NCBI GenBank assembly: GCA_001795385.1
Contig: MGOU01000002.1
Span: forward strand, 12,333 to 46,375
Direction: 5' to 3'
DNA length: 34,043 bases
Source of the DNA: Clostridiales bacterium GWD2_32_19
GTDB taxonomy: Bacteria > Bacillota > Clostridia > Lachnospirales > UBA12420
Below, piece by piece: positions 1-25,150 of the stretch. The notes under the pieces were generated by a model that worked only from the letters and a program-made list of their open reading frames with translations, was not told where the DNA came from and ran no database searches. How positions within the stretch are numbered: the first letter of the stretch is position 1; every line of letters starts with the position of its first letter. The position numbers and the translations under genes were made by a program.

Positions 1-30
1 CCCCGTCGGCTTGCCACGGGAGATTCATTA
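1..30 (+). repeat. Edge fragment of dispersed palindromic repeat (arm type A)
   Basis: The window opens inside a copy of the repeat seen complete at 22566-22728. It has the CCCCGTCGGCTTGCC arm and the closing GGGAGATTCATT. Whether the missing left part carried the GTCATTGCGAG core cannot be seen. It lies just past the tlpA-like stop codon, so it is in the 3' region of that minus-strand operon. Confidence 0.8.
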
Positions 31-1406: not shown

Positions 1407-1569
1407 TAATAAATTTGGGTTTAATTCCCCGTCGGCTTGCCGCGTTCTTGTCATTGCGAGGAGGTTCTTTCGACGAAGCAATCTCGTTTTTGAAAGATGA
1501 GATTGCTTCGCAAAAAAACGCTCGCAATGACAACATGATACCCCGTTGTCTTGCCACGGGAGATTCATT
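1407..1569 (+). repeat. Dispersed nested palindromic repeat, arm type A, copy 2
   Basis: The left arm CCCCGTCGGCTTGCC is at 1427-1441. The core runs from GTCATTGCGAG (1450-1460) to CTCGCAATGAC (1521-1531) with an inner GAAGCAATCTC/GAGATTGCTTC palindrome. A second diverged arm is at 1541-1560, and the element ends GATTCATT. It sits between the divergent ccdA and 1773-2255 genes. The remaining 1570-1772 holds no gene; a TATAAT at 1727-1732 lacks a good -35 partner. Confidence 0.9.
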
Positions 1570-8544: not shown

Positions 8545-8705
8545 TAATCTCTTAGGGTCAATTCCCCGCAGCTCTGCTGCGTGCGTTCTGTCATTGCGAG
8601 GTACGAAGCAATCTTGTACTTAAGCTAAAGGAGAGATTGCCTCGCAAAAAGATGCTCGCAATGACAAATAGATACCCCGCAGCTTTGCTGCGGGGAGAAT
8701 TCATT
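8545..8705 (+). repeat. Dispersed nested palindromic repeat, arm type B, copy 3
   Basis: The same architecture as the type A copies but with arms CCCCGCAGCTCTGCTGCG (left) and CCCCGCAGCTTTGCTGCGGGG (right). The core again begins GTCATTGCGAGG and ends CTCGCAATGAC, with a different centre (TTGTACTTAAGCTAAAGGAG). It ends GAATTCATT. It fills much of the gap between the copper operon and the SLH gene. Confidence 0.9.
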
Positions 8706-15240: not shown

Positions 15241-15290
15241 AATGAATCTCCCCGTGGCAAGCCGACGGGGAATTAAACCCAAAGAGATTA
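15241..15290 (-). repeat. Core-less (solo arm) copy of the type A repeat
   Basis: The reverse complement reads TAATCTCTTTGGGTTTAATT, then CCCCGTCGGCTTGCCACGGGG, then AGATTCATT. It is the two outer ends joined around one arm, lacking the GTCATTGCGAG core and the second arm. The hairpin CCCCGT...ACGGGG lies 46 nt past the DUF2703 stop. The 15195-15673 gap otherwise holds a promoter and a perfect hairpin. Confidence 0.88.
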
Positions 15291-16652: not shown

Positions 16653-16814
16653 TAATCACTTTGGGTTTAATTCCCCGTCGGCTTGCCACGTTCTTGTCAT
16701 TGCGAGGAGGTTCTTTCGACGAAGCAATCTCGTTTTTGAAAGATGAGATTGCTTCGCAAAAAACGCTCGCAATGACAACATGATACCCCGTAGGCTTGCC
16801 ACTGGAGATTCATT
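16653..16814 (+). repeat. Dispersed nested palindromic repeat, arm type A, copy 5
   Basis: A left arm CCCCGTCGGCTTGCC, the GTCATTGCGAGG...CTCGCAATGAC core, a right arm CCCCGTAGGCTTGCC and a GATTCATT end. It lies just upstream of the chemoreceptor and contains an in-frame ATG (16780) that would wrongly extend that protein by 27 residues. Confidence 0.92.
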
Positions 16815-18654: not shown

Positions 18655-18809
18655 TATCTCTTAGGGTCAATTCCCCGCAGCTCTGCTGCGTGCGTCCTGT
18701 CATTGCGAGGTACGAAGCAATCTGGTACTTAAGCTAAAGGAGAGATTGCTTCGCAAAAAGATGCTCGCAATGACAAATAGATACCCCGCAGCTTTGCTGC
18801 GGGGTATCT
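18652..18809 (+). repeat. Dispersed nested palindromic repeat, arm type B, copy 6
   Basis: Near-identical to 8545-8705 through the core and right arm. Its first bases (TAATATCTC) overlap the chemoreceptor stop codon. The right end differs from the other copies: it closes as a perfect palindrome ATACCCCGCAGC-TTT-GCTGCGGGGTAT and lacks the GAATTCATT end. Confidence 0.9.
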
Positions 18810-22498: not shown

Positions 22499-22557
22499 TT
22501 AAAATGTACCCTATAGAATAGACTGTTTATTTGTCTATTCTATAGGGTACATTTTAA
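22499..22557 (+). terminator. Perfect 25-bp hairpin after the DUF402 gene
   Basis: The arms 22499-22523 and 22533-22557 are exact reverse complements around a nine-base TGTTTATTT loop. The right arm ends in TTTTAA. It is placed as a terminator, possibly bidirectional, but its length and perfection exceed what termination needs. Confidence 0.7.
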
Positions 22558-22565
22558 AATAAACT

Positions 22566-22728
22566 TAATCTCTTTGGGTTTAATTCCCCGTCGGCTTGCC
22601 GCGTTCTTGTCATTGCGAGGAGGTTCTTTCGACGAAGCAATCTCGTTTTTAAAAGATGAGATTGCTTCGCAAAAAACGCTCGCAATGACAACATGTTACC
22701 CTGTCGGCTTGCCGCGGGGAGATTCATT
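22566..22728 (+). repeat. Dispersed nested palindromic repeat, arm type A, copy 7
   Basis: The best-preserved copy: TAATCTCTTTGGG start, arm CCCCGTCGGCTTGCCGCG, core GTCATTGCGAGGAGG...CTCGCAATGAC, second arm CCCTGTCGGCTTGCCGCGGGG, and GATTCATT end. It lies between the 25-bp hairpin and the YbjQ gene. A 62-codon reading frame crossing it is an artefact of the repeat. Confidence 0.93.
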
Positions 22729-24702: not shown

Positions 24703-25098
24703 ATGAAAAAGATTATTCCCAATATCAATTTTAAAAATTGTAAAGAGGCTTTAGATTATTACAAGGAAATATTTGGTGGAGAAATAAAAAATCTTCAGAA
24801 ATCAGACAATACACCTGGTTTTGAAGGACAAGAAGGAAAAATAATACATGTAGAACTTCATATTAACGATCAATGTATATTATATCTGGTGGATGCAATG
24901 GGTGATAGTGCAGAAAGTGGTAATATGGACTTGATACTTGAATTAGATAGTGAAGAAGAAATAAATAAACTATACAAAGCTTTGAGTAAGGATGGCACTA
25001 TAAAATTTGAGTTACAGAAGACATTTTGGGGAGCTCAACATGCAATAATTACTGATTGCTTCGGAGTTACATGGGGATTGAATTATATGCTACAATGA
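24703..25098 (+). CDS. VOC-superfamily (PhnB/glyoxalase-like) protein
   Basis: A 131-residue single-domain protein with the PhnB-type vicinal-oxygen-chelate pattern: an opening beta strand PNINFKNCKEALDYYKEIFG, a middle HVELHIND strand, and an end with DCFGVTWGLNYM. Homologues are dimeric metalloenzymes or resistance-type binding proteins with varied substrates. GCGAGGAGGTGA precedes ATG 24703. The gene ends in its own strong hairpin terminator. Despite the family name PhnB, there is no phosphonate locus nearby. The substrate cannot be inferred. Confidence 0.88.
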   Translation: MKKIIPNINFKNCKEALDYYKEIFGGEIKNLQKSDNTPGFEGQEGKIIHVELHINDQCILYLVDAMGDSAESGNMDLILELDSEEEINKLYKALSKDGTIKFELQKTFWGAQHAIITDCFGVTWGLNYMLQ

Positions 25099-25099
25099 A

Positions 25100-25150
25100 T
25101 AAAAGATAGTATTAACTTATTCTGAATAAGTTAATACTATCTTTTATTTT
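25100..25150 (+). terminator. Intrinsic terminator of the VOC gene
   Basis: A perfect 22-bp stem (25100-25121 with 25125-25146) with a CTG loop, then TTTTC. A-rich on the far side, so it could act on both strands. Confidence 0.85.

Follow-up and report, generated by a model that had tools for sequence, protein, structure and literature searches.

How did a palindrome enclosed by two direct copies of a GC-rich arm come to be repeated between the genes of a clostridial genome, and what carried it there? The question is raised by a window of 34,043 nucleotides from Clostridiales bacterium GWD2_32_19 (contig MGOU01000002.1, positions 12,333 to 46,375), in which the initial annotation had listed five copies of such a nested repeat with common outer ends. 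The genome (G000 below) is a low-GC draft assembly of 1.97 Mb in 47 contigs; its loci are given as contig:position. The two congeners, G001 and G002, are ∼66–86% identical to it across the aligned stretches of the window. We consider it highly probable that the repeat derives from an IS200-type insertion sequence, is itself non-autonomous and carries the palindrome as a passenger.

All five copies are real, with exact starts at 1411, 8549, 16657, 18658 and 22570, and direct GC-rich arms lie around the core palindrome as described; the arm pairs have drifted in some copies. A solo copy on the minus strand and a remnant at the window start had been overlooked. The features are as follows.

22570–22728, plus strand: composite copy, type A (IS200-like left end, core palindrome, right end); TTAAT before it at 22565–22569
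22586–22603, plus strand: left-end hairpin arm CCCCGTCGGCTTGCCGCG of the 22570 copy, from folding
22608–22690, no strand: core palindrome TGTCATTGCGAG...CTCGCAATGACA of the 22570 copy, 83 nt, from folding
22699–22728, plus strand: right end of the 22570 copy, hairpin CCCTGTCGGCTTGCCGCGGGG plus AGATTCATT
1411–1569, plus strand: composite copy, type A; core 1449–1532
8549–8705, plus strand: composite copy, type B, arms CCCCGCAGCTCTGCTGCG / CCCCGCAGCTTTGCTGCGGGG; core 8589–8666
16657–16814, plus strand: composite copy, type A; core 16695–16777
18658–about 18804, plus strand: composite copy, type B; core 18698–18775; tail past the right hairpin diverged
15241–15286, minus strand: solo outer copy, left end joined to right end through a single arm, without core
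1–29, plus strand: what remains of the right end of one more composite copy, the body being outside the window, upstream of position 1; it adjoins a run of N in the contig

The typical unit is ∼159 nt long and mostly preceded by TTAAT. It consists of a left end (LE; CTCTTTGGGTTTAATTCCCCG or a variant), an arm, TGTCATTGCGAG...CTCGCAATGACA, a second arm and a right end (RE; GAGATTCATT or a variant); it contains no tnpA, and the TGTCATTGCGAG palindrome stands in the place of that gene. In the 22570 copy, the GC-rich right arm (22699–22719) is a direct repeat of the left arm at 22586–22603. Comparison of the 60 nt on either side of the core gives a longest exact shared run of 14 nt in this copy, 6 nt at 1411 and 10 nt at 16657, 8549 and 18658. 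At least two arm/core types are present in the window (A at 1411, 16657 and 22570; B at 8549 and 18658), and TTAAT or CTAAT precedes four of the five listed copies, with AATAT before 18658. Perfect 25-nt inverted repeats with short loops were also seen at 22499–22557 and 25098–25148 and are probable terminators or separate small palindromes.

With the 163-nt unit as BLAST query, the own genome gave at least 88 matches at E ≤ 1, far more than chance would produce; 40 of 104 candidates were scored, and the count includes reverse matches of the palindrome. The best non-self match had E = 8.3e-77. A 15-nt left-end pattern matched 40 times, as against none for the reversed control. Matches above 200 bits numbered at least 32 in G000, at least one in G001 and none among those scored in G002 (27 candidates per congener). 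G001 has a type A copy that is almost complete, plus two copies whose arms differ; in G002, the matches listed fall within query positions 34–132, the core region. Orthologous positions in G001 were compared by eye for two window sites. The solo copy at 15241 had no counterpart downstream of the orthologous gene; at the second site, the gene before 8549 has an orthologue in G001 that is followed by a core in another frame. The concentration of strong matches in G000 and the missing counterpart of the solo copy speak for mobility of the unit.

Judged from sequence, the duplicated arms are the two subterminal hairpins, left and right, of an element of the IS200 type (Y1 transposase). Hairpins are predicted at both LE and RE of the unit. 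The left-end pattern matched in one of 397 other genomes of the phylum (G389), where a decayed tnpA of the IS200 type and then GATACCCCGCAGCTTGCTGCGGGGAGATTCATT follow it, and in three IMG/VR contigs. In six IS200 records, LE lies upstream and RE downstream of tnpA, with no core between them. These records come from plasmids of the cyanobacteria Kovacikia and Chroococcidiopsis and of the rickettsial endosymbiont Ca. Megaera, from two IMG/VR contigs and from G389, the one genome of the same phylum. The tnpA frame is open in three of them (L289, L286 and L287), interrupted by one stop in two (L290 and L291) and decayed in L275. The three open-frame proteins are IS200/IS605 transposases by Pfam PF01797 and NCBIfam NF033573, and among solved structures the L289 protein matches the ISHp608 transposase and others. 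The LE of the Kovacikia element agrees with type B at 35 of 38 bases.

Local alignment scores of both ends exceeded all 200 shuffles in six of six IS200 records. Controls from the genus, three other IS200-family genes and four RAYTs (REP-associated tyrosine transposases), all fell within the shuffles at both ends (seven of seven). Two more distant IS200 elements (L292 and L293, 45% and 41% identical to the query protein) had been entered as controls in this test; both of their ends exceeded the shuffles, more weakly (LE 27 versus 23 and 30 versus 20; RE 33 versus 26 and 37 versus 19). Similarity of the ends thus forms a gradient within IS200, so that the unit matches a branch of this family rather than a single element. 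The arms of the unit are also distinguishable from each other. In type B they differ identically in both window copies (CAGCTCTG on the left, CAGCTTTG on the right), a further subfamily of six copies has left and right arms of different types, and the sequence after each arm is specific to its end (the LE interior versus AGATTCATT). As no gene lies between the ends, the unit would be a non-autonomous derivative and not a full IS.

The initial annotation had directed attention to a transposase or RAYT-like gene with matching ends. An IS200 tnpA of this description exists in the other records above; the RAYT-like genes tested in the genus do not answer to it. Neither G000 nor the congeners G001 and G002 yielded an IS200 gene whose ends match, in a comparison that excluded short Y1 fragments of G001 (L265, L267–L269). 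When 398 genomes of the phylum were searched at the protein level with a strict limit of E ≤ 1e-30, nothing was returned, and even the decayed G389 gene was missed; PF01797 had no match in any of the three IMG/VR contigs that carry the left end. The 163-nt unit had no match in plasmid and phage collections at E 0.001. When viral contigs were scanned for a core flanked by CCCCG arms, three loci came up; inspected by eye, none has ends of the IS200 type.

The sequence at the left junction is biased. TAAT stands directly before CTCT in 45 of the 54 copies found by pattern, and TTAAT in 42; TAAT occupies 1.1% of positions in the background and 2.2% in AT-rich stretches. The same 54 copies were used for the divergence and neighbor-gene tests below. 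Twelve of them lack a clean right end; the 42 with both ends comprise seven short copies (45–46 nt, coreless) and 35 long ones (124–209 nt). A 3-base match resembling a target-site duplication (TSD) occurs in five of these 42, with none longer, and 4.7 would be expected by chance from pairing the flanks of different copies. At C33:38357 a tandem case is found: TAAT is followed by a unit running from CTCTCAGGG to GGTTCATT and then by CTCTTTGGGTTTACAACCCC; the unit thus has TAAT immediately before it and the CTCTTTGGGTTTACAACCCC belonging to another left end immediately after it. Removal of the insert leaves a normal left end; the pre-insertion site is therefore known, and nothing was duplicated. 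TTAAT could be part of the element rather than its target, but this single tandem case argues otherwise. Classification as a MITE with inverted terminal repeats and a TSD was considered and rejected, because direct duplication of the target is lacking.

Orientation is biased as well. With strands assigned from GC skew, the top strand of the unit lies on the G-rich strand in 60 of 70 copies (the 54 found by pattern and 16 added by hand; binomial p = 8e-10). The G-rich strand is the template for lagging-strand synthesis. Pairs of copies on the same contig agree in orientation in 76 cases and differ in 19, a result reached in none of 20,000 shuffles. Long ORFs are strand-biased too (414 of 472, or 88%, on the same strand), which means that few copies test the bias independently of genes; copies flanked by convergent or divergent genes were therefore examined. 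Thirteen of 14 such copies follow the GC skew, as do 12 of 13 with ORFs of 150 aa, eight of nine with ORFs of 200 aa and 23 of 24 with looser ORFs. The bias is what would be expected if the unit moved by single-strand transposition; IS608 and ISDra2 are described as preferring the lagging strand (PMC6006769).

The core leads a life of its own. The initial annotation had proposed a nested unit with separable parts, and separate searches bore this out: arms and core occur independently and not always together. Of 59 paired cores in the G000 sequence examined (629,092 bases, 32% of the genome, mostly around known matches and hence not a genome census), 47 have an IS200 end on either side; arms were called by fuzzy patterns and core-end places taken from 100 of 140. 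The other 12 lack one or both arms: three are solitary, two stand in a frame that follows terminator-like hairpins, two in a GATAGTGTC-ended MITE and three in IS200/MITE hybrids, and two have a left end only. Conversely, the seven short outer copies are coreless. As the initial annotation had stated, such cores occur in many bacteria. The core is found alone in at least 118 stretches from Bacteroidota, Pseudomonadota, Chloroflexota, Cyanobacteria and candidate phyla (as labelled in the records), and the left-end arm (TTCCCCG or AATTCCCC) was within 60 bases of none of 184 core ends at 118 loci of other bacteria. Among 398 genomes of its own phylum, this core form (at most one mismatch) was found in G000 only, so that within the phylum it looks acquired or rare.

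The core is an inverted pair of hairpins with the tags outermost. With a search pattern that fixed TGTC at the first end, the opposite end was found for 84 of 147 matches and reads TGTC in 66, CGTC in ten and otherwise in eight. The stem starts with ATTGC/GCAAT, and the folded half units have 5 bp followed by mismatches, with a tail of CTC or CCC. This fits CGTC-tagged REPs in the tag and first pairs and departs from them in stem length and tail; we therefore name the core CGTC-like and do not file it as a member. By eye, sister palindromes (TGTCATTTCGA...AAATGACA and TGTCATTCTGAG...) occur in the same loci as the core, and five loci (L101, L162, L169, L174 and L210) have a TGTCAT foot with other stems (TTC/GAA, TCT/AGA) near GTCATTGCGAG cores. 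This looks like compensating stem change within one superfamily. The solitary core at C7:60404 (L042) is enclosed by an inverted repeat of 12 nt, GTTACAGTTCAG; a direct repeat of the same length, AGATAACAGATA, lies farther out, and the whole is perhaps another nested frame. In G001 (L254, contig C61), an IS110-family transposase with an open frame at 182–1399 (PF01548, PF02371, NF033542) has flanks that resemble two pieces of a GTCATTG core beside an IS200-type left end, with the boundary set by eye, as if the palindrome had been the target of that transposon.

Two other frames hold the same core. The first, TTACTAGGAAA...CTCCGATTT, comes directly after the T-run of terminator-like hairpins, at C22:4431, C30:29255, C10:53061 and C43:37792 and on contig C2 of G001 (L238, about 490–640); the gene upstream of the G001 copy is orthologous to the one preceding the 8549 copy in the window. 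The second resembles a MITE, lies upstream of genes and has the ends GATAGTGTCAAAAG / TTTACACTACC; it contains the core or half of it (C8:36571, C20:41626, C13:31583 and others; L051, L057 and L059). Hybrids between frames were also found: left end A, core and the right half of the MITE at C13:5715 and C33:31964, and the left half of the MITE, core and right end A at C25:9107. One copy combines left end A with right end B (C21:162086), and the reverse combination, left end B with right end A, forms a subfamily. Subfamilies A, B and LE B/RE A, the LE A/RE B copy and the three MITE hybrids all join at the core.

Near-identical cores in unrelated frames (two types of IS200 end, the GATAGTGTC-ended MITE and the terminator-linked frame) would let recombination at the core swap the ends. 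The palindrome might then be a shared joint through which mobile frames exchange ends, a tentative reading that we rate as possible rather than probable. If true, a REP without its own transposase would gain many vehicles, which would explain the spread of CGTC-like REPs that have no enzyme of their own. The divergence data fit such exchange. Among 24 type A copies, differences from the consensus occur at 18 of 1986 core sites and 63 of 1819 arm sites (0.9% versus 3–4%; Fisher 3e-8, or 8e-6 without one site split 12:12).

This low divergence means either that selection keeps the core or that cores exchange sequence. The first option is part of an explanation in which the core is a functional RNA or DNA structure under selection (a terminator, an mRNA stabilizer or a protein binding site) and the transposon ends are incidental. 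The position of the window copies, between the main ORFs or at their edges, would suit such a role. We nonetheless consider this explanation improbable: one species holds a high number of copies on one set of ends, orientation follows the skew between convergent or divergent genes too, Rfam had no match to the repeat at gathering thresholds, and gene conversion between palindromes would yield equal conservation.

Movement of the unit as a REP/BIME by the RAYT genes of the genus is slightly less credible still. There are nine PF01797 matches in G000, including five open frames of 239–314 aa, and the hairpins of the core are REP-like and paired in inverted orientation. The ends of the unit had no match at any of the four RAYT loci scored, however, and in 12 of 13 RAYT-like loci other repeats were seen by eye at one or both borders, GGGTCAGG...CCTGACCC or GGGGACGGTTC...GTCCCC (L032–L034, L036, L257, L259–L264 and L266, not L035). 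A decayed RAYT-like gene on C32 with a solo outer copy ∼0.7 kb downstream, on one side, is the one contrary observation, and we rejected RAYTs as the mover on their unmatched flanks. A profile of three RAYTs of the genus had a single match in at least 138 core loci (118 from other bacteria and 20 from congeners), ∼2 kb from the core, which we take as chance.

The least probable account is that offered by the initial annotation, in which the palindrome, itself a transposon, jumped into a hairpin repeat already present and duplicated 15–18 nt of it. In its favor, near-identical direct arms do flank the core in several copies, arm-only copies exist and, of the three solitary cores, C7:60404 shows a direct repeat of 12 nt within the 100 nt on either side. 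That repeat, however, is not adjacent to the core and lies outside the 12-nt inverted repeat, the other two solitary cores (C10:56939 and C12:5341) share just 6 and 7 nt between their flanks, the arms occur in mixed pairs and each continues into its own end-specific sequence, and the same two arms flank tnpA in coreless IS200 relatives. Target-site duplication was thus rejected on the IS200 ends, the mixed arm pairs and the chance level of TSD-like matches.

We therefore return to a gene-less IS200-type element, which looks like the vehicle that spread the palindrome to dozens of sites. Its ends would be LE (CTCTTTGGGTTTAATTCCCCG plus hairpin) and RE (GATA, hairpin and GAGATTCATT), recognized in single-stranded form by a Y1 HUH transposase. 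The tnpA gene would have been replaced by the TGTC-tagged palindrome, an inverted pair of REP-like hairpins of a kind found across bacteria, and transposase would be supplied in trans, no matching tnpA having been found in the own assembly. The top strand would be excised and inserted 3′ of TTAAT on the lagging-strand template, with no duplication of the target. Since the transposase would move the whole top strand, the palindrome would be copied along with it. Solo copies may have arisen by deletion between the two similar arms; all seven have left-end sequence before and right-end sequence after their single arm, which is what such a deletion would leave. The sequences show directly that the ends resemble those of tnpA-bearing relatives, that TTAAT and strand biases exist, that core and ends occur independently and that hybrids join at the core; transposition itself and this deletion we infer.

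In Di Nocera et al. (2013; PMC3733652), the movement of CGTC-type REPs is left open: none borders a transposase gene except by chance, no dedicated transposase is recognized and a broad spectrum of transposases is suggested. The present repeat offers a concrete, testable vehicle: dozens of copies of a CGTC-like palindrome lie between the ends of a Y1 element, with a strand bias as for single-strand transposition. In open-licence PMC text, we found no report of a CGTC-like palindrome between IS200 ends, and a search of papers for the sequence string of the repeat gave no paper on bacterial repeats among the matches listed. The misreading corrected above is likely to recur, since a palindrome with direct arms on both sides may owe them to an IS200 derivative, as its two hairpin ends, and not to duplication of a target.

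RAYT-linked GTAG REP systems (REPINs, BIMEs) resemble this repeat in that Y1 enzymes and inverted hairpin pairs are involved; the present core, however, has no GTAG tag, and the scored RAYT genes of the genus have unrelated flanks. CGTC-tagged REPs are closer. According to Di Nocera et al. (PMC3733652), these have a CGTC or TGTC tag, AT first stem pairs, a stem of 8–9 bp, a loop of 4–5 nt and a tail that is mostly CCA; they form mostly HH dimers, which include dRS3 of Neisseria and RPE-4/6 of Rickettsia, and a list there of five phyla with CGTC repeats does not include Bacillota. Measured against that description, the core is likewise an inverted hairpin pair with outer TGTC/CGTC tags and A-T, T-A first stem pairs, present in many phyla and without a known transposase. 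It differs in its contiguous stem (∼5 bp versus 8–9 bp), in its tail (CTC/CCC versus mostly CCA) and in being carried between IS200 ends. Nesting has a precedent in that paper (PMC3733652): in Halothiobacillus neapolitanus, among others, REP dimers lie within other palindromes, CGTC-1 in palindromes of 41 bp. As described there, the outer palindrome was not encountered in the absence of the REP and no link to a transposon is stated, whereas here solo outer copies exist and the outer part has IS200 ends.

The closest relatives of that outer part are the IS200/IS605 elements with Y1 TnpA, such as IS608 and ISDra2. The unit differs from them in that it does not encode tnpA and that no active partner is seen in its own assembly. 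It shares with them a hairpin of the same sense at each end, the LE and RE hairpins being similar, a short fixed motif at the left junction, target duplications no more frequent than chance and a strand bias fitting the lagging-strand template, and its ends are close to those of tnpA-bearing relatives. In its end hairpins, its apparent insertion at a fixed motif without duplication and an orientation seemingly tied to the replication fork, the outer part is thus what would be expected of an IS200/IS605 element, with the palindrome of another repeat family in the place of tnpA.
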